Of a DNA stretch of 64,000 nt, positions 6,082 to 15,575 are shown piece after piece. Each line of letters begins with the position of its first letter. Positions within the stretch are counted from its first letter, which is position 1. Source of the stretch: Lentzea alba (GTDB lineage: Bacteria > Actinomycetota > Actinomycetes > Mycobacteriales > Pseudonocardiaceae); NCBI RefSeq assembly GCF_011067745.1, contig NZ_JAAMPJ010000008.1, positions 124,001-188,000 of the forward strand, read 5' to 3'. Under the pieces are notes generated by a model that ran no database searches, had not been told where the DNA came from, and saw only the letters and a list, made by a program, of their open reading frames with translations. A program made the position numbers and the translations under genes.

Positions 6082-7422
6082 ATGTACAAACGCGCCGCCC
6101 TGTTCGCCGTACTGCTCGTGGCCGCCTCATCCCCTGTCGCGACGGCCGCGCCGACCTCCACGGTCTACGTCCACGGGACCGACATCGCCGCCGCCGAACA
6201 GGCGGTGGCGGCCGCCGGCCTGCAGAAGCTGACCAGTTTCCGCAAGATCGGCGTGGTCGCCGCGCGGGGTGACTCCACGCGGATCTCGTCCGCCCGCGCC
6301 AAGACCGGGGTGACGCGCGTCGAGGTCCAGAAACCGATCAAGTTCCTCGGGTCGACCTCGCACACCGCCACCCGCGGCCTGGACGCCCGCAACAGCCTCG
6401 GGCTCACCGGCGCGGGCGTGTCGGTCGCCGTGATCGACTCCGGCGTCGACCCGACGCACCCCTCGTTCGGCGGCCGGATCGTCCGCAACCTCAAGAGCCT
6501 GTGCCTGGACGGGGCGTCGGACTCCAGCTGCATCGTGCCGGTGCCGAACTTCGTCGACACGGACACCACGTCGCTGGGCGGCCACGGCACCCACGTCACG
6601 GGCATCGCGATCGGCGGTGACGTGCAGACCACCGGCGGCCCGGTGATCCGCGGCGCGGCGCCGGGCGCGAAGGGCGTCGTGATCTCCACCGGTGCGGCGA
6701 TCCTCATCCTCGGCGCGGACGCCGCGCTGAACTGGGTGCTGGAGAACCACAACGCTCCGTGCGGGGCCGGTGTCCCCGCGTCGACCTGCCCGCCGATCAA
6801 GGTGATCAACAACTCCTACGGGCCGTCCGGCGGCGGCGCGTTCGACCCGGAGTCGGTGACGGTCAAGCTCCAGCGCCAGCTCGTGGCCGAAGGAGTCGTC
6901 GTGGTGTGGGCGAACGGCAACGACGGTGGTGACGGCTCGGCGAACCTGTCGAACCCGCCCGGCACCGACCCGACGCCCGGCGTGATCTCGGTGGCCTCCT
7001 ACAACGACCAGGGCACCGGCAGCAGGGACGGTGCGCTGTCGGACTTCTCGTCGCGCGGTCTCGCCACGAACTCCGCGACGTGGCCGGACATCTCGGCACC
7101 CGGTGAGAACATCACCTCGTCCTGCCGCCTGTACCTGCCGATCTGCGCGACCGGGCTGGACCCGCAGAACGGTCCCGGACTGCTCGACCTGGGCACGTTC
7201 AACACGATCAGCGGCACGTCGATGGCGGCACCGCACATCGCCGGCATCGTCGCACAGCTGTTCCAGGCCAAGCCTTCCGCGACGCCCGCCGACATCGAGC
7301 GCGCGCTCAAGTCGACGGCCCACAAGTACGGCACCGGTTACCAGCCGGTCGGGCCCTTCACCTCGTCGTTCGACAAGGGAACGGGTCTGGTGGACGTCGT
7401 CGCCGCGGTAAACGTCCTGTAG
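6082..7422 (+). CDS. Secreted subtilisin-like serine protease (family S8)
   Basis: A 446-residue preproprotein. A Sec signal peptide covers MYKRAALFAVLLVAASS with a likely cut after ATAA; a short inhibitor-I9-like propeptide follows to about residue 100. The catalytic triad is visible as Asp119 (VAVIDSGVD), His168 (GGHGTHVTG) and Ser380 (GTSMAAPHIAG), with the oxyanion Asn in INNSYGP. ATG at 6082 follows GGAGGG. It is monocistronic with a hairpin downstream. Substrate unknown; in filamentous actinomycetes such proteases process extracellular peptides or scavenge protein. It lies 4 kb from the lanthipeptide locus, so a role as leader peptidase is conceivable but unsupported. Confidence 0.95.
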   Translation: MYKRAALFAVLLVAASSPVATAAPTSTVYVHGTDIAAAEQAVAAAGLQKLTSFRKIGVVAARGDSTRISSARAKTGVTRVEVQKPIKFLGSTSHTATRGLDARNSLGLTGAGVSVAVIDSGVDPTHPSFGGRIVRNLKSLCLDGASDSSCIVPVPNFVDTDTTSLGGHGTHVTGIAIGGDVQTTGGPVIRGAAPGAKGVVISTGAAILILGADAALNWVLENHNAPCGAGVPASTCPPIKVINNSYGPSGGGAFDPESVTVKLQRQLVAEGVVVVWANGNDGGDGSANLSNPPGTDPTPGVISVASYNDQGTGSRDGALSDFSSRGLATNSATWPDISAPGENITSSCRLYLPICATGLDPQNGPGLLDLGTFNTISGTSMAAPHIAGIVAQLFQAKPSATPADIERALKSTAHKYGTGYQPVGPFTSSFDKGTGLVDVVAAVNVL

Positions 7423-7622: not shown

Positions 7623-8126
7623 GTGAGCACCCGTGGCAGCACCAGTGGCGTGGTCTACGTCCACTCGTCGCCGTCTGCGGTCTGTCCGCACGTCGAGTGG
7701 GCGATCTCGGGCACCCTCGGTGTCAGAGTGGACCTCAGGTGGGCAGCGCAACCCGCGGCACCAGGCCAGTTGCGCGCTGAATGCGCATGGACCGGAGACG
7801 CCGGCACCGGCGCGAAACTCGTGGCTGCGCTGCGCGCGTGGCCAATGCTTCGCTTCGAGGTGACCGAGGAACCGTCACCTGGTCAGGACGGCGAACGCTT
7901 CTGCTTCGCGCCGGTTCTGGGACTGTGGCACGCCCGCACCTCGGCCAACGGTGACATCGTGGTCAACGAGGACCAGCTGCGTGCGCTCGCGGTCAGGGCC
8001 CGTGGCGGGGAGTCGTTCGCGCACGGTGTGGACGAGCTGCTCGGCGCCGCGTGGGACGACGCCCTGGAACCGTTCCGCCGCGCGGGCGACGGCGCGCCGG
8101 TCACCTGGCTGCACCGTGTCGGCTAA
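7623..8126 (+). CDS. DUF3145 family protein
   Basis: A 167-residue soluble protein recognised from the start GVVYVHSSPSAVCPHVEWA and from LRFEVTEEPSPGQDGERF, both strongly conserved in the DUF3145 family, which is nearly universal in actinomycetes and of unknown function. GTG at 7623 has GGAGG eight bases upstream. It ends 30 bases before the convergent ABC exporter gene. Probably a housekeeping gene marking the left border of the lanthipeptide locus. Confidence 0.93.
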   Translation: MSTRGSTSGVVYVHSSPSAVCPHVEWAISGTLGVRVDLRWAAQPAAPGQLRAECAWTGDAGTGAKLVAALRAWPMLRFEVTEEPSPGQDGERFCFAPVLGLWHARTSANGDIVVNEDQLRALAVRARGGESFAHGVDELLGAAWDDALEPFRRAGDGAPVTWLHRVG

Positions 8127-8156
8127 CTGGATCTGTTAGTCCTGAGTGGACCCCGC

Positions 8157-9875
8157 TCACCGTTTGGGCAGCGGGGTTTCCTCGTGGTGGGTGGGATCCC
8201 AGGCCAGCATGAGCTGCCCGTAGAGCGGCGACGTCTTCAGCAGGTTCTCGTGGGTGCCCAGCAACGGCTTGCCGCCGTCCATGACCAGCACGCGGTTTGC
8301 CCGCAGCGCCGAGCTCAACCGGTGTGCGATCACCACGAGAATTCCTTCCCGTTCCGCGAAAGCCCGCTCGACGCGCGCTTCCGCGGCCGGGTCCAGGTGT
8401 GAGGTCGCCTCGTCGAGGATCACGACGCTCGCGGACGTGACGTAGACCCGTGCGAGCGCGAGAAGCTGGGCCTCACCAGCGGAAAGCCCCTCGCCGGCGT
8501 GACCGAGCGCGGCGTCCAGACCGCCCAGCCGGTTCAGAAGTGCTGTGGCGCCGACCTTCTTCACCGCTTCGGTGAGATCCTCGTCGGTCACCCACGGCGC
8601 GAGCAGGGTGAGATTTTCCCGCACGGTGCCGGTGAAGAGGTACGTCTCCTGCGGAATCAGCGCGATCGCGTGGTGCCTGATCGTCGGGGCGACCAAGTCG
8701 ACCGGGGCGCCGCCGAACAGGACGCGGCCGTTGTCGGGCGGCATCAGGCCGGTGAGCAGACTGGCCATTGTGGACTTGCCGATGCCGGAAGGCCCGACCA
8801 CGGCGAGGTGGTCGCCGGGGCGCAGGTCCAGCGACAGGCCGCGCAGCACCGGTTCCGCGTCCGGGCTCCAGCCGAACGTGACGTCACGCAGGGCGAATTC
8901 GCCGTTGGACGGAACTTCCTCGCCGACTTCCGTGCGTGTCTGCGGTGCAGCTTCTTGAAGTCGTTTGAGCGCAACCATGAGACGCATGACGACCGTGCTG
9001 GTGGTGCGCGCGAGGCCGTGCAGCGCGGGGTTCACGCTGTTGGTGAGGTACACGACCGCAGCCAGCGTCGCGCCTTCGGTGAGCTGGCCGGACGCGACCA
9101 GCGGGGGAGCGAACGCCACGAGCAGCACGATCGGTGCGAAGCCGCCGATGGCGATCACCGTGGCGCGCAACGAGTTCGCCCAGGCGACCGTGATCGTGGC
9201 GCTGGCCTGCTGGTTGATCTGCGTGGCGATGTCTTCGTACGCCTCGTCGGACGCGTCGCAGGCGGCGACGTCTCGCAGTCCGGTGAGCACCGCGCCGGAC
9301 GCTTCGGCGGTGCGCTCGTCGGCCATCACGGCGTCGCGCTGGCGTTTCGCCAGTGACGGAAGCATGAGGCCGAAGAGCACCAGCGCGGCCACGATCGGGA
9401 GCACGACCAGCCAGATCAACGCGGCCGCCGTGGTCGCGAGGCCGATGAGCGCGGCGATCGTGGTGACCAAAAGGGCACGAGCCTGGACGAGCACACCGGC
9501 GGTGGCGTCGCGAACCACCTCGACATGCCGGGTGATCATGGCGACCGCGCTGGCGTCCGGGGTCCTGCGGTGCGTCGGGTCGTTCAGCACGCCCTTGACG
9601 ATCCGCGTGACCAGGGCGTCGCGCATGGGTTCGACGACGTCGCCGAGCCGGGCGAACACCTGTCGCTGGCCGAGCGCTCCCACCACCGCGAGCGCGGCGA
9701 ACGCGAGCAGCCACAGCACACCGGCCAGCGGGTTTCCCGCTGCGAAGCCCTTGTCGACGGCCGTGCCGACGAGCTTGCCGCTGAAGAACGCCGGTACGCC
9801 TTCGAGCATCGACCAGCCGAGCAGGATCAGGACACCTCTGCGGTGTCCGGCCAGCGTGGAGAGGTAGAAACGCAT
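8157..9875 (-). CDS. ABC exporter half-subunit, lanthipeptide export (RamB/AmfB-like)
   Basis: A 572-residue fused membrane/ATPase protein: six-helix exporter domain at about residues 10-310, ATPase at about 335-560. Walker A is GPSGIGKST, Q-loop LIPQETYLFTG, signature GLSAGEAQLLALARV, Walker B VVILDEATSHLDP with the catalytic Glu, and switch His in VIAHRLSSA. There is no C39 leader-peptidase domain. The start is ATG at 9875, sharing one base with the stop of the upstream half-subunit (TGATG), which implies translational coupling and a heterodimer. With its partner it should export the modified lanthipeptide across the cytoplasmic membrane. Last gene of the lanthipeptide operon. Confidence 0.92.
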   Translation of the reverse strand: MRFYLSTLAGHRRGVLILLGWSMLEGVPAFFSGKLVGTAVDKGFAAGNPLAGVLWLLAFAALAVVGALGQRQVFARLGDVVEPMRDALVTRIVKGVLNDPTHRRTPDASAVAMITRHVEVVRDATAGVLVQARALLVTTIAALIGLATTAAALIWLVVLPIVAALVLFGLMLPSLAKRQRDAVMADERTAEASGAVLTGLRDVAACDASDEAYEDIATQINQQASATITVAWANSLRATVIAIGGFAPIVLLVAFAPPLVASGQLTEGATLAAVVYLTNSVNPALHGLARTTSTVVMRLMVALKRLQEAAPQTRTEVGEEVPSNGEFALRDVTFGWSPDAEPVLRGLSLDLRPGDHLAVVGPSGIGKSTMASLLTGLMPPDNGRVLFGGAPVDLVAPTIRHHAIALIPQETYLFTGTVRENLTLLAPWVTDEDLTEAVKKVGATALLNRLGGLDAALGHAGEGLSAGEAQLLALARVYVTSASVVILDEATSHLDPAAEARVERAFAEREGILVVIAHRLSSALRANRVLVMDGGKPLLGTHENLLKTSPLYGQLMLAWDPTHHEETPLPKR

Positions 9876-11491
9876 CACTCGCCCCCGGTGAACACAGCGC
9901 GGTAGTCCTCGTCGTCCCACAGCTCGGCGTGGGTGCCGGTGCCTCTGACCCGGCCGTTTTCCAGCCACACCACGACATCGGCCCGTGCCGCCGTCGCGGG
10001 GCGGTGCGTCACCACGACCCGTGTGCGGCCGGGCAACGCGGTGGTGAGCGCCTTGTCCACTTTGGCCTCGGTCACCGTGTCCAGACTCGCGGTGGCGTCG
10101 TCGAGCACGAGGACCTGCGGATCCCGCACGATCGCGCGCGCCAGGCCGATCCGTTGTGCCTCACCGCCCGAGAGCGGGGCGTCGGAGAGCGGGGTCTCGT
10201 ACCCCTGCGGCAGGCGGATCAGCGCGTCGTGGACCTGCGCGGCCACCGCCGCGTCGCGCACCTGGATCTCGTCCGCGTCCGTTCCGTACCCGATCGAACG
10301 ACCGATCGTCGTGCCCAGCAACGCGGGACGTTCGAAGGCGTAACCGACCTGGCCGTCCCGCGCGATGTCGCCGTCGTCCACAGCGGACAGTCCGCCGAGC
10401 ACCGCGGCCAGCGTCGACTTGCCCGCTCCGGAGCTGCCGACGACCGCGGCGAACGCGCCTTCGGGGATCGTGAGGCTCACGTCGTGCAGGACGCCGTTGA
10501 TGCTGACGTTGCGGAGTTCGATGCTCCCGTCGGAGGGCTGGGGGGTTGGTCGAGGTGCCGGCGGGGTGTCGAGGACCTCGGCGATCCGGGTGGCGGAGGC
10601 ACGGGTGCGTTCCAGCGCGGTGAGCTGCGGGATCTGCCCGACGATGCCCATGCCGAGGGCGGTGTAGCCGAGGGCGGCGAGCACGTCACCGGTGCTCAGC
10701 CTGCCCTGGAGGATGCCGAACCCGGCGGCGACGAGCACGGCCAGTTCCACGGCCGGCAGCAGGAGTCCCGCGCGCCACATCATCTTCGCCTGGGTGCGCC
10801 ACATGCCGCCGCCCGCCGCGGCGAGACGGGGAAGTGGCTGCAACACCCGGCCGGACTCGCGGTCGGCGATGCCCGCGGCGGCGATCGTGTGCCGGCCGGC
10901 CACCGCGTCGACCAGGCGGGCCGAGATCTCGCCGGAGACCTCCTGGTAGGCCAGCACGTCGTCGGCGGTGAGCTGCATGTGCGAGCGGACGAGGAGCATC
11001 GCCAGCGGCACGCTGACCGCGAACACCGCCGCGAGCCGCCAGTCCAGCAACGCCAGCGCCACGACCGAGCCGACCGAGGACACCGCGGCGATGATCAGGG
11101 ACATCACGGTGACCACGACACTGCCCGCGTTGCCGCAGTCGCCGGTCAACCGGCTCACCGAGTCACCCGCGGCGAACCGCGGCGGATGGCCGAGCGCGAG
11201 CAGGTGGCGGGAGAGGCGTTTGCGCAGCCACGCGGTGGCGCGGGCGGTGATGCTCGCGGCGAGCACGATGCCGATCGCGTCGCCGATGATCTCGGTGGCC
11301 GCGAGCAGCAGCAGCCACAGGACGGTGACCAGCACGAACGTTCCGCCCAACGCCATGTCGACGGCGCCTGCGAGCGCGGTGGGGAGCAGCAGACCGGCCG
11401 TGGTGGCCACAGCGGCGTTGAGCAGCAACAGCCACGGGCGCACGTCTCGCCGCACGACGGAGAACAGCAGAGCGTCACCGGGTTTGGCCAT
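9875..11491 (-). CDS. ABC exporter half-subunit, lanthipeptide export (RamA/AmfA-like)
   Basis: A 538-residue exporter half-subunit: transmembrane domain at about residues 15-300 and ATPase at about 325-530. Walker A GSSGAGKST and signature PLSGGEAQRIGLARA are good, but Walker B reads VLVLDDATASLDT, with Asp in place of the catalytic Glu, and the Q-loop Gln is replaced (YAFERPALL). That is the pattern of the degenerate site in heterodimeric exporters; the complementary site would use the Glu-bearing partner with this signature. ATG at 11491 follows CCGGAGGAAC. It is separated from the precursor gene by two hairpins that could lower its expression relative to the peptide. Confidence 0.92.
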   Translation of the reverse strand: MAKPGDALLFSVVRRDVRPWLLLLNAAVATTAGLLLPTALAGAVDMALGGTFVLVTVLWLLLLAATEIIGDAIGIVLAASITARATAWLRKRLSRHLLALGHPPRFAAGDSVSRLTGDCGNAGSVVVTVMSLIIAAVSSVGSVVALALLDWRLAAVFAVSVPLAMLLVRSHMQLTADDVLAYQEVSGEISARLVDAVAGRHTIAAAGIADRESGRVLQPLPRLAAAGGGMWRTQAKMMWRAGLLLPAVELAVLVAAGFGILQGRLSTGDVLAALGYTALGMGIVGQIPQLTALERTRASATRIAEVLDTPPAPRPTPQPSDGSIELRNVSINGVLHDVSLTIPEGAFAAVVGSSGAGKSTLAAVLGGLSAVDDGDIARDGQVGYAFERPALLGTTIGRSIGYGTDADEIQVRDAAVAAQVHDALIRLPQGYETPLSDAPLSGGEAQRIGLARAIVRDPQVLVLDDATASLDTVTEAKVDKALTTALPGRTRVVVTHRPATAARADVVVWLENGRVRGTGTHAELWDDEDYRAVFTGGE

Positions 11492-11532
11492 CGGCTGTTC
11501 CTCCGGAGGTCATGAGGGCGCATCATGAGCGA

Positions 11533-11605
11533 GGGCCCGACAGCTGGCCGGCTGCCGGGCCCTGCAGTTGGCGGGTGAGCGGCATACTTCGCCTATGCCG
11601 CTCAC
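11533..11605 (-). terminator. Two hairpins between precursor and exporter genes (probable attenuator)
   Basis: Read on the minus strand after the precursor stop, the first hairpin is GTGAGCGGCATA/TATGCCGCTCAC (12 bp perfect, 7-base loop, 11575-11605). The second is GGGCCCG/CGGGCCC (11533-11539 with 11556-11562) enclosing CAGC/GCTG. Hairpins here commonly let only part of the transcription continue into exporter genes, giving excess precursor (known from lantibiotic operons; inference here). Confidence 0.65.
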
Positions 11606-11633
11606 TCACCGCGGTGTTTCAGTTAGGCGCAGA

Positions 11634-11795
11634 TCAGCAGGCCAGCAGGCTGACGGTGCTGTGCGAGCAGGGGAGCAGCAGCGACGCGTTCGACGCGGTC
11701 GTGGAGCCGCCGCCACCGCCGCCGCCACCCGACGCCATCGCGTTGCTCGGCGCCTCGGGGGTCTCGAGCTCCTGCATGTCGAGGATGAAGCCCAT
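11634..11795 (-). CDS. Class III lanthipeptide precursor, SapB (RamS)-like, with octaglycine linker
   Basis: A 53-residue peptide. The leader starts MGFILDMQELETPEAP, matching the (I/L)-L/F-D-x-Q leader recognition motif of class III precursors, then reaches eight consecutive glycines (residues 23-30). The core contains SNASLLLPC (Ser35, Ser38, Cys43) and STVSLLAC (Ser46, Ser49, Cys53), two S-x2-S-x(3-4)-C units as in SapB, each able to form a lanthionine or labionin. The ASLLL segment is shared with SapB, the surfactant morphogen that lets Streptomyces raise aerial hyphae. ATG at 11795 has AGGAG at good spacing. It lies 40 bases after the synthetase gene, all codons are in frame across the Gly run, and there is no overlapping alternative gene. 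Confidence 0.93.
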   Translation of the reverse strand: MGFILDMQELETPEAPSNAMASGGGGGGGGSTTASNASLLLPCSHSTVSLLAC

Positions 11796-11835
11796 GACAA
11801 TCTCCTAATTTCGAGGGATCGATCTGTGTTTACTG

Positions 11836-14400
11836 CTACCGGTCGGTGAGAACCGGCGTTCGTGAGCCCAGGAAGGGCAGTGGTGGCAGGCCGTCCACAG
11901 TGGACGCGATGGCGAGCAGAACGCCCGCGCCGCCGGTGTTGAGGTCCATGGAGAGCCGGCGCAGCTGGACGCCGGGGAACGCGATCCCGGCACCGAAGCG
12001 CACGGCGTGCCAGCCGAGTGCTCGCAGGTGCGTTTGCACCGAGCGCTCCAGCTGTTCGTCCGGCCGGTGCCGCGTCGCGTGGGCGAGCGTGGCCATCAGA
12101 CCGGCCCTGCCCAGCGTGAACGCCGGCTGGATGACGAACTCGCCGGTGCAGCCGCTGAGCAGTTCGGGCAGCTTCTCGACGCACGGGCGTTCGGGAGCCA
12201 CTGCGGCGAACTCGGTGAGCGCCAACGCGATGCCCGCGCCGCCGATGCCGACGTACGGCAAGCTCCGGAACGTGCCGTCCCGCACCTGCAGCGAACCGTC
12301 CAGCGCGACCATCGTCTCGGCCAGGTCGCGTTCGAGCGCCTGCTCCGCGAGCTTGAGCCAGCGTCGTTCGGTGGTGTGGCCGAACATCCGCAGGAAGAAC
12401 AACGCGGGTCCGGACCAGCCGTGCAGCAGGCCGGCCTTCGCCTTGTCACCCGGTCCGGGTGCGTCGGCCAGCTGCTTGGCGAGTCGTTCGGCGAGCTCCT
12501 CGGCCTTGACCGCGAAGCCGTCGTCCTGGCGGGTGTCCGCGAAGTGCAGCAGGTTGAGCCCGATGCCGGACAAACCCGCGCTCAGCCCGTGGTCCTGCGT
12601 GGTCGGAACGAGCGCGGCGTAGCTCTCGACGAGTTCGGTCGCGAGGTCGTGATGGCCGAAGTTCTCCAGCACGTGCGCGATGCCGTGGGCGCCGACGAAG
12701 AACCCCGCCTGCTTCGGCGGATCCTTCCGCACGGCCTTGATCAGCCAGTCCTCGTGCTCGGCATAGCGGCCTTCACCGCTGACGTCGAGGGCGTGCAGCA
12801 CACCGGCCGCGCCGTACCCGAAGCATGTGCCGCCGACCTCGAACTGCTCGATGTCGCCGGGGAACAGCCGGTCCGTCCGTTGTGGAGTCGCGCTGTGCAG
12901 GATCGCGGTGGCGATCTCCTTGCGCACGACCGTCCAGTCCGGGTTCTCCTCGTCGAACTGCGTGAAGGCCGGGTCCGACGGCGGGTCGACGCGCGGCCTG
13001 AGCACGTCGATGATCGCCTGGCCGTATTCGTCGCTGAGCCCGAAGCGTTGCTGGATGACTTTGACGTGCTGGGGGAGTTTCGCGGGTGCGAGCTCCAGCA
13101 CCGTGTTGAGCGGCAGGAAGATCCACAGCTTGAGCGCCGCGAGCGGGTGCTCGTCGATCTCGAAGCCCTCGCGGTCTTTGGGCGCCTGGAAACCGGGGGC
13201 GCCGAGCGTGGGCCGGTGCACGTCCTCGATCGTGGACGACAGCTCGAAGTCGATCAGCGAGATCTCGTCGTCCTCGTCGACCAGGATGTTGAGCGTGTGC
13301 AGGTCGCCGAACACGACCCCGCGCTCGTGCACCCGTGCCATCAGCTCTTCGACCTTGCCGACGAGATCGAGCGCGCGTTCGCGGTACTCGGCGAGCTTCT
13401 CGTCGTCGGTGTCCTTGTGCGTCAAGGGGTAGTTGTGGCCGAGCCACTGCCCGAGCGAGCGGCCGGGCATGAACTCCATCGCGACGAACAGGTGCTCCCA
13501 CTCGATGAAGCGGTCGTACACCTCCGGCACGCCCTTGACGCCCTTGAGCTTGGTGAGGATCTCGTACTCGCGCTCCAGCCGTGCCACGGCGTCGCGGCCC
13601 TCGCGGTCGAGCCCGGCGTGCGGCCGCGCCTCCTTGAGCACGACCTCCTTGCCGTCGCTCTTGCGGGTCGCCAGGTAGACGCCACCACCGTTGGAGAAGT
13701 GCAGTGAATTCTTGATCTGGTAAGGGAACTGCTCGGGGTCGCCGGCGTTGCGCTCGGCGAGGTGCGGCGCCAGGAACTCCGGCAGCTCGACCCACTCCGG
13801 CACGCTGAAGACCGGCCTGCGCTTGTCGGCGACGAGCTCGCCGTCCGGCCCTTCGATCGCGAGCACCTGCTGACCGTCGATCTCGAGCCACTGCTCGGAG
13901 AACCCGCCGTAGCGCACGTACAGCGGTCCCTTGCCGAACCGCAGGTCGCTGAGGACGTAGGCGCCGTGCTCGCCGTCGAGGATCGCGCCGAGCTCGGTGC
14001 AGATCTGCCGGAGCTGGTCCGTGTCCGTCGGGTAGATCGTGATCAGCTTGCCGCTGCCCTCGCGAGGTGCGTACTTCGAGTTGCGGGCCAGCACGATCGA
14101 GATCGTCGGCAGGTACTTGAACGGGATCCGCCGCTCGACGCAGTAGTCGAAGGTGGCCTTGAGAACCCTGGCCGCGTTGTCGAGACCTGCGGAGACGTGA
14201 ATCTTCCAGCCCTGCTTCGGCAGCTGCACCCCGTGCGGGTGCAGGTGCCTCCACACATTGCGCTCGACCTGCACCCAGTCGACGGGCAGTTCGGGCAGCT
14301 CACGCGAAAAGTCGTCGCCTGGGAGGTCGCTTTCGGTGCTGCTCTGCAGATCGTAGAACCGTCGATCTGCGAAGCAGAACGCCTCGTATCTGAGGTCCAC
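11836..14400 (-). CDS. Class III lanthipeptide synthetase LanKC (RamC-like)
   Basis: An 854-residue cytoplasmic enzyme. Residues 1-190 are the phosphoSer/Thr lyase region (starts MDLRYEAFCFADRRFYD, as in RamC). Residues about 200-490 are a Ser/Thr-kinase domain with VVLKEARPH (ATP Lys), FGDLHTLNILVD (catalytic loop) and LIDFE in the Mg-binding position. Residues about 510-854 are a LanC-like cyclase with the repeated Gly motifs AHGIAH, GLSGIGLN and LLHGWSGPALF, but without the Cys-Cys-His zinc ligands of class I/II/IV cyclases, which defines class III. It phosphorylates, eliminates and cyclises Ser/Cys residues of the precursor. GTG at 14400 is chosen because GAGGAGGG lies eight bases upstream; a longer frame to 14475 has no ribosome site. 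Confidence 0.95.
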   Translation of the reverse strand: MDLRYEAFCFADRRFYDLQSSTESDLPGDDFSRELPELPVDWVQVERNVWRHLHPHGVQLPKQGWKIHVSAGLDNAARVLKATFDYCVERRIPFKYLPTISIVLARNSKYAPREGSGKLITIYPTDTDQLRQICTELGAILDGEHGAYVLSDLRFGKGPLYVRYGGFSEQWLEIDGQQVLAIEGPDGELVADKRRPVFSVPEWVELPEFLAPHLAERNAGDPEQFPYQIKNSLHFSNGGGVYLATRKSDGKEVVLKEARPHAGLDREGRDAVARLEREYEILTKLKGVKGVPEVYDRFIEWEHLFVAMEFMPGRSLGQWLGHNYPLTHKDTDDEKLAEYRERALDLVGKVEELMARVHERGVVFGDLHTLNILVDEDDEISLIDFELSSTIEDVHRPTLGAPGFQAPKDREGFEIDEHPLAALKLWIFLPLNTVLELAPAKLPQHVKVIQQRFGLSDEYGQAIIDVLRPRVDPPSDPAFTQFDEENPDWTVVRKEIATAILHSATPQRTDRLFPGDIEQFEVGGTCFGYGAAGVLHALDVSGEGRYAEHEDWLIKAVRKDPPKQAGFFVGAHGIAHVLENFGHHDLATELVESYAALVPTTQDHGLSAGLSGIGLNLLHFADTRQDDGFAVKAEELAERLAKQLADAPGPGDKAKAGLLHGWSGPALFFLRMFGHTTERRWLKLAEQALERDLAETMVALDGSLQVRDGTFRSLPYVGIGGAGIALALTEFAAVAPERPCVEKLPELLSGCTGEFVIQPAFTLGRAGLMATLAHATRHRPDEQLERSVQTHLRALGWHAVRFGAGIAFPGVQLRRLSMDLNTGGAGVLLAIASTVDGLPPLPFLGSRTPVLTDR

Positions 14401-15002
14401 CGAAATTCCCTCCTCGACCGTTTTGCGATTTCGTTGACGCCGAATATTCCCGCACAATTCGGCGGCTATGGCCAATCCGCCATTCGAGGTATATGGGTAC
14501 CCTGTTCGTGTCCGAATGATGCAGGGTTACCGGTGCGTATGTGACGCTTTGTGACGAGGTTTGGAGCCATCTCACCCGCCTGCGAGGTTTGCTGATTGGC
14601 CAGTCAACGCACCTGTCTTGGTGTTTTGCTAAACGGGACTGTATCGTTCAGTTTCGGTGCGTGCCGGTGAGCTGCGATATTCCAAGTCGATCTCGACGTA
14701 TAGTTAGGGGTGGGCAACCGTCATGTACGCACTGTGTTCCGTACTCTTTTCGAGTGAAGCCAAAAATGGCTGCCAATGCGTGTTTGATACGACCGATCGG
14801 CGGTAGGCGCTCGCCCGAAGGAACCCATCCGGAGTATGGGATTGCGCCTCTGCATTTGTGTATCAATCATTGTCTTGCTACATGCAAGTTGCATCTGCGT
14901 GGAATATAGTCTTTCGGCTGAAGTTTATGTTTTGATGTAACAGGCGCGGTTTTGTGAGCGGCCCTCTGCTGTGCGGTGCCCGGTGCGGGCTAGGCTGCGG
15001 GG
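14401..15002. promoter_or_regulatory. AT-rich intergenic region upstream of the lanthipeptide operon
   Basis: No convincing gene. By hand count 14641-14940 is about 50% GC, against roughly 70% around it. Nearest the synthetase gene, TGTGACG is repeated at 14540-14546 and 14550-14556, exactly 10 bases apart, as expected for two regulator subunits on one face of the helix. The promoter of the lan operon must lie here. The small frames in it use codons unlike the neighbouring genes. At the far end TAGGCT (14990-14995) is a likely -10 for the rightward gene. Confidence 0.6.
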
Positions 15003-15575
15003 GTGGGGAGCGTGGCTAGCCGCTGGCTGGTGCCGGCCGTGGTGGTGATCACCGGCGCCGCGGTGGCGGCCGGGATGGTGGGGCGGACGATCTACTCACG
15101 TCCCGCGGAGGCGAAGGGGTCGCCGGTCGTGCCGTCTTCGTCCGTTGCCGGGCCGTTGCCGGGGTCCGCGGAGGTTCGCTTGAGCCCGGACGCGTTCACA
15201 CATCCCGATCGGACCGCGGTGCAGACGGTGCTGCAGAAGTACTTCGACTCGATCAACGAGCGGGACTTCGCCGGGTGGCGGTCGGTGGTGTCGGCTCAGC
15301 GGGTTGCCACTACTCGGGAGGCGGCTTGGTTGGCCGACTACGAGACCACCCGGGATGGCGGGATGGTGGTGCAGCGGGTCGAGTCTGATGTGGTGGGGCG
15401 GCGGTTGCGGGTGCTGTTGTCGTTCGTGTCCACTCAGGACGTTGCCAAGGCTCCGCCTTTGGTGCCGGAGCGGTGTGTTCGGTGGCGGGTTGTTTATGTG
15501 ATGGTGTGGGAGGGTGGGGAGTTGAAGGTGGATCTGGCGCCTGAGAGTCGGACTCCCCAGATGGAGAAGTGTTGA
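15003..15575 (+). CDS. Membrane-anchored protein with NTF2/SnoaL-like outer domain
   Basis: A 190-residue protein with one N-terminal helix (WLVPAVVVITGAAVAAGMVG), a Ser/Pro linker to about residue 58 and an outside domain of about 130 residues beginning VQTVLQKYFDSINERDFAGW, which reads like the first helices of an NTF2-like fold. Function unknown. GTG at 15003 would be leaderless behind TAGGCT; GTG at 15012 has GGGGAG just upstream, so either start is possible. It lies between the lanthipeptide and fatty-acid loci with no obvious link to either. Confidence 0.7.
   Translation: MGSVASRWLVPAVVVITGAAVAAGMVGRTIYSRPAEAKGSPVVPSSSVAGPLPGSAEVRLSPDAFTHPDRTAVQTVLQKYFDSINERDFAGWRSVVSAQRVATTREAAWLADYETTRDGGMVVQRVESDVVGRRLRVLLSFVSTQDVAKAPPLVPERCVRWRVVYVMVWEGGELKVDLAPESRTPQMEKC

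Follow-up and report, generated by a model that had tools for sequence, protein, structure and literature searches.

A SapB/AmfS-family class III lanthipeptide cluster kept at one chromosomal site in Lentzea, with a probable role at the colony surface

The 64,000-nucleotide stretch of Lentzea alba DNA analysed here (hereafter the window; contig NZ_JAAMPJ010000008.1, positions 124,001 to 188,000) carries on its minus strand four genes of a class III lanthipeptide cluster of the SapB/AmfS family. The interpretation that we favor, with a probability of about 0.8, is that this cluster is vertically inherited and directs the production of a modified peptide that is exported by a heterodimeric transporter, acts at the colony surface and aids the formation of aerial hyphae. 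The genes, their family membership and order, their shared chromosomal site, the conservation of the core and the ATPase motifs of the exporter can be read from the DNA and its translations, and they form the basis of what follows.

The synthetase, LanKC, has the lyase-like N-terminus, kinase domain and LanC-like domain of its class according to Pfam. It scores 1030.9 bits with the class III model NF038151 (cut-off 575) and 365.9 bits with the class IV LanL model, under the cut-off of 650, so that the class III model is preferred. By sequence, the solved structures nearest to it also belong to class III synthetases, 8sao being the best (E 5.7e-100). The CHG motif, which we take as the marker of the cyclase zinc site, is absent from its cyclase domain, where none of the three cysteines found after residue 500 is followed by HG; the cyclase appears to be without a zinc site, as expected for class III. 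The 53-residue precursor is made of a leader MGFILDMQELETPEAP, a variable Gly-rich linker and a core STTASNASLLLPCSHSTVSLLAC, the border between leader and core being a working division and not a known cleavage site. It exceeds the cut-offs of both NF033212 (SapB_AmfS_lanti; 53 bits, cut-off 25) and PF19402 (RamS; 36.4 bits, cut-off 24.3). Since it also recurs just downstream of LanKC in all 24 Lentzea genomes examined (L. alba included, out of 297 genomes of the family Pseudonocardiaceae), the frame is, judging from sequence, not a chance one. A weak precursor-like match elsewhere in the L. alba genome (contig C9, E 0.69) was below cut-off and was disregarded. The precursor contains two S-x2-S-x(3-4)-C units, SNASLLLPC (x4) and STVSLLAC (x3), and its leader has the motif LDMQ, which becomes LDLQ in one Lentzea locus (L059) and in most other genera; with M for L, this corresponds to LxLQ, the named class III leader motif (PMC7268733). 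In the window and in 24/24 Lentzea the minus-strand order is synthetase, precursor, half-exporter and half-exporter, that of a ramCSAB-type operon. The first-pass annotation, made from the letters of the window, had proposed a SapB-like class III locus with synthetase, precursor and two exporter genes in this order, and a 53-residue precursor with a class III leader and two such Ser/Cys units; the domain models and the gene order bear out each of these points.

The cluster is a regular part of Lentzea genomes. Both the precursor and a LanKC over cut-off were found in 24/24, and a 2022 survey of the genus records such a class III gene for every strain that it covered (PMC9120177); for these two reasons the cluster is ordinary, not unusual, in Lentzea. 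Among the best 80 of 570 LanKC relatives, ten named Lentzea loci have a LanKC 82-91% identical to that of the window, above every other named genus among them; these loci (L095-L102, L109, L115) seem to duplicate loci counted already and were left out of the exporter and site counts. Six of the 24 genomes (G272, G277, G105, G083, G193, G007) have a second LanKC over cut-off, and G204 and G230 a weaker one. The second LanKC of G272 (L064) is 57% identical to the window's, with no relative of the window exporters in its 18-kb stretch.

The cluster is flanked in all 24 Lentzea by lp15003, a small gene, on one side and by a DUF3145 gene on the other, with a fabF relative beyond lp15003 in the 20 genomes whose stretch shows that region. 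The fabF and DUF3145 labels rest on Pfam and lp15003 has no Pfam match; acp, fabH, fabD and pucR labels at this site are presumed from the usual gene order. The same site is occupied in 6/6 other loci (L070, L072, L076, L083, L088, L094) and in eight of eight named loci, seven from Saccharothrix and one from Umezawaea; both groups were picked after seeing the LanKC comparison, and their counts are descriptive, not a test. The cluster was at this site in none of 87 other loci, some of which end at contig ends, where absence means little, and some of whose genomes are represented twice. The pairs counted twice in the non-Lentzea tallies are L065/L121, L066/L126, L071/L131, L074/L114, L087/L146, L088/L108 and L090/L125. 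Three family genomes examined (G020, G001, G034) show the site empty, lp15003 adjoining DUF3145 with nothing cluster-like between, and two of them (G020 and G001) carry a cluster elsewhere (L077, L090). At the shared site in a further genus, locus L076 has the core SRASLLLCGDSSLSLTTCN, which we take to be SapB-type, and its LanKC shares 57% identity with that of the window; near-identical cores occur in the Micromonospora loci L144, L145 and L168. On this reading the Lentzea peptide is tied to the SapB type by position besides model score. A locus with a precursor-like match and no LanKC nearby (L063) was excluded from the locus comparisons and from the exporter and site tallies, and L064 from the Lentzea counts; L064, L074, L081 and some named loci, in which the precursor pattern matched nothing, were excluded from the precursor counts.

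The core itself is nearly invariant in Lentzea. It is identical in 22/24 Lentzea, encoded there by 15 different DNA versions, and the remaining two (L049, L050) have STTASSASLLLPCSHSSASLLLC; all 24 retain the Ser and Cys residues assigned to the rings. Over all pairs of the 24, a Nei-Gojobori count, which books serine codon-box switches partly as non-synonymous, gives 0.167 synonymous vs 0.048 non-synonymous differences per site in the core. A codon recount of the same pairs separates 808 plain synonymous differences, 193 serine codon-box switches and 176 amino-acid changes. With the pairs restricted to the 22, these numbers become 608, 99 and 0, so the amino-acid changes come solely from two genomes. 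In the leader, the first 16 codons give 0.245 synonymous vs 0.023 non-synonymous differences per site, and the linker between leader and core varies from 13 to 16 residues. Beyond Lentzea, two loci of another genus at the shared site (L072 and L094) have exactly the core of the window, although identity to its LanKC is 65 and 67%, respectively, and most other cores at this site differ from it by few residues, chiefly near the end. The core therefore usually stays the same as the enzymes change, L088/L108 and the SapB-type core of L076 being clear exceptions.

Heterodimeric exporters of the ATP-binding cassette (ABC) type can pair a degenerate Walker B with a degenerate signature, so that one of the two ATP sites is weak and the other active. 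Half-exporter 1 has a Walker B ending in DD and the signature LSGGE in 24/24 Lentzea, and half-exporter 2 a Walker B LDEA with the signature LSAGE (23 genomes) or VSAGE (one). Because the Walker B is degenerate in the first and the signature in the second, the two genes are best read as encoding a single heterodimeric exporter in which one ATPase site is degenerate. Two ABC genes are indeed present, as had been claimed, but the motifs favor one heterodimer over two separate exporters. Outside Lentzea, DD was found in half 1 in 50/50 named loci and in 26 of the 29 further loci of the family (one unaligned). Less favorable to a heterodimer, two of these 29 loci have DE instead, and the signature of half 2 is a normal LSGGE in 2/51 named loci and 1/29 other family loci. 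Loci entered this tally if their hits exceeded 38% identity and the two halves matched separate places, which kept 29 of 30 other family loci and, of 70 named non-Lentzea loci, 50 for half 1 and 51 for half 2.

From these elements we infer how the peptide might be modified, exported, freed of its leader and put to use. LanKC would bind the FILDMQ leader of the precursor, then phosphorylate and eliminate core serines, most likely S5, S8, S16 and S19 of the 23-residue core, and would join Cys13 and Cys23 to the modified serines to give two hydrophobic ring units, lanthionine or labionin. The two half-transporters would export the peptide as a heterodimer, and proteases encoded outside the cluster would remove the leader. 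The product would most likely reside at the colony surface and help aerial hyphae to form. With four dehydrations, the computed [M+2H]2+ values are 1102.5455 (23-residue core), 957.9819 (ASNASLLLPCSHSTVSLLAC) and 922.4633 (SNASLLLPCSHSTVSLLAC), the N-termini being assumed. Two lanthionines plus two dehydroalanines have the same mass as two labionins, and a four-dehydration mass would not tell the ring types apart. Rings of the labionin type, as in rochsin A and durhapeptin, instead of the lanthionines of SapB would be a variant of the scheme just given and not exclusive of it. We regard them as quite possible, though not as the expected outcome: both units fit S-x2-S-x(n)-C, a pattern that gives either ring type (PMC7268733), and the RamC/AmfT synthetase group yields all types, which makes prediction hard, but SapB has two lanthionines (PMC13380574) and the core of the positional orthologue L076 appears to be of its type.

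The role as a morphogen is suggested by analogy with SapB and AmfS, whose clusters in Streptomyces promote the extension of hyphae into the air, and with the reports on durhapeptin and rochsin A in PMC13380574; according to the same source, durhapeptin's own producer gave no response to the variant tested. The terms "surfactant" and "needed for aerial growth", given to the Lentzea peptide at first pass, would likewise hold by analogy. Several observations weigh against the favored interpretation. The precursor is patchy across the family, with a match at E <= 0.001 in 142/297 genomes (140 over the model cut-off), and one contig of Saccharothrix sp. ALI-22-I (L088/L108) has the same site and gene order with a quite different core, SNTASNLSLFSCWNNSTLSLLAC. 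No ramR-like regulator was found beside the cluster, where ten flanking frames were scanned without a regulator domain and the flanks are DUF3145 and lp15003. None of the four cluster genes contains a TTA codon. According to PMC4255298, ramR is found in streptomycetes only, and most Streptomyces clusters have a TTA codon in the ramR-like or ramC gene. Moreover, the best chaplin match in 22/24 Lentzea (not every candidate was scored) is a frame of 744-1327 amino acids and not a small protein, so that the Streptomyces partnership of chaplins and SapB may not apply.

Among these long frames one was read, a frame of 1015 amino acids in L. alba (contig C31 near 276115-279162; L175:2116-5163, plus strand). 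Four stretches of it match the chaplin domain of Pfam (E 3.4e-12); it has an apparent signal peptide by eye and ten degenerate SGNVV..P..V.GN-like repeats, and may be a giant repeat chaplin. The view that most Lentzea are without chaplins was dropped once the L. alba match turned out to be this frame with its four ChpA-C stretches. In the other two Lentzea (G182, G051) the best match is a small protein, of 76 and 85 amino acids (L176:979-1209, minus strand; L177:894-1151, plus strand). A bolder proposal, which we consider rather unlikely, would have the peptide serve as a surface morphogen conserved across genera in the line of Lentzea, Saccharothrix and Umezawaea, with a giant chaplin-like repeat protein as its partner in place of small chaplins and with a core that stays near-fixed while the enzymes diverge. 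A morphogen with a near-fixed core would, if true, be contrary to the suggestion that the divergence of amf-type clusters might point to a role in speciation (PMC4255298). With the cluster at one site in all 24 genomes and its core nearly invariant, Lentzea offers a clean case for opposing general surface tools to species-specific signals; if the core is what matters, a Lentzea or Saccharothrix strain should respond to the peptide of another.

Class III lanthipeptides have varied activities, and the same chemistry might yield an antimicrobial or another specialised metabolite in place of a developmental morphogen. The Lentzea cluster has indeed been grouped with that of erythreapeptin, with a mention of antibacterial properties (PMC9120177). 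We nevertheless judge this improbable, given that the core is near-invariant in the genus and common to another genus at one site, which suits a housekeeping function better than a diversifying weapon, and that the cluster has four genes only, with no evident immunity gene. The four genes do not include a leader protease; class III clusters usually have none in Actinobacteria (PMC7268733), and the same goes for most of those characterised (PMC8960859). An S8 protease gene (6082..7422, plus strand), which has a subtilase domain (PF00082), lies one gene past DUF3145 and is full-length in 21/24 Lentzea, is very unlikely to encode the leader peptidase as a cluster member and was ruled out as such: in the local stretches examined (not whole genomes) it is missing or partial in 3/24 cluster-bearing Lentzea (L041, L043, L057) and in 11/14 other loci at the shared site, in NCBIfam it matches a mycosin best, with a score under the cut-off, and it accompanies DUF3145 and not the cluster, although of the three empty sites only that of G020 contains it, with none seen in G001 or G034.

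The features of the cluster are listed in Table 1. The start of LanKC is most likely the GTG at 14400 and not the mechanically assigned TTG at 14475, because this GTG is kept in 24/24 Lentzea and GGAGG occurs within 25 bases upstream in 23 of them (L059 is without it). Half-exporter 2 most likely starts at the ATG at 9875, in a one-base overlap with the stop of half-exporter 1. With the two corrected starts, the cluster apparently extends from 8157 to 14400. Of the limits first given to the locus, 8157..15002, the left one stands; the right one has to be moved to 14400, the remainder being apparently non-coding upstream sequence.

Table 1. Genes and upstream region of the Lentzea alba cluster (window coordinates).
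Feature	Coordinates	Strand	Remarks
LanKC, class III lanthionine synthetase, 854 aa	11836..14400	(-)	GTG start; RamC_N, kinase and LanC-like cyclase domains; NF038151, PF25816, PF00069, PF05147
SapB/AmfS-family precursor, 53 aa	11634..11795	(-)	NF033212, PF19402
ABC half-exporter 1, 538 aa, RamA position	9875..11491	(-)	PF00664 and PF00005; Walker B ends DD (degenerate), signature LSGGE
ABC half-exporter 2, 572 aa, RamB position	8157..9875	(-)	PF00664 and PF00005; Walker B LDEA, signature LSAGE (degenerate)
Upstream region, probable promoter region	14401..15002	(-)	Blocks kept in alignment of 24 Lentzea upstream regions

These ~600 bases upstream of LanKC lie in an AT-richer stretch and include several blocks conserved among the 24 Lentzea, with no regulator site identified. 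A sigma-70 consensus scan of 8000-15200 gave no match. The single hit of a terminator-like scan, inside LanKC, was disregarded (3.4 hits were expected by shuffle), and the repeats upstream, short two-copy families and weak inverted pairs only, were taken as chance.

Our results extend the SapB/AmfS system, best known from Streptomyces, to Lentzea, where all genomes examined have it at one site with a near-invariant core. Class III lanthipeptide genes had already been reported for the genus (PMC9120177). What appears to be new is the identity of the core across genera, the heterodimer reading, the SapB-type positional orthologue and the probable position of the S8 protease outside the cluster. 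The first-pass annotation knew of no described compound with this core, and text searches agree: none was found in the open-access literature searched, although a description elsewhere is possible, and the string SLLLPC does not occur in that literature.

In comparison with known systems, the ramCSAB cluster of Streptomyces coelicolor, which makes SapB, and the AmfS cluster of S. griseus have the same order of synthetase, precursor and two half-exporters (for S. coelicolor, PMC4255298). In contrast to them, the Lentzea cluster has no adjacent ramR. The likeness to SapB and AmfS extends to the precursor, which passes their common model and has two S-x2-S-x(n)-C units. The ASLLL stretch of the Lentzea core also occurs in SapB, and the Lentzea peptide would differ from SapB by the x4 spacing of its first unit (SNASLLLPC), the run of eight Gly before the core, the terminal Cys and the second unit SHSTVSLLAC. 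The erythreapeptin cluster of Saccharopolyspora erythraea is likewise of class III, and the gene of all surveyed Lentzea strains is reported to be 75% identical to that of erythreapeptin (PMC9120177). In Amycolatopsis, the majority of cores resemble SNLSLLASC...STISLLTCH, and no locus of that genus was found at the Lentzea site. The SapB/AmfS-type clusters of Saccharothrix, Umezawaea and Amycolatopsis have related cores and, in most loci read, the same gene order as Lentzea.

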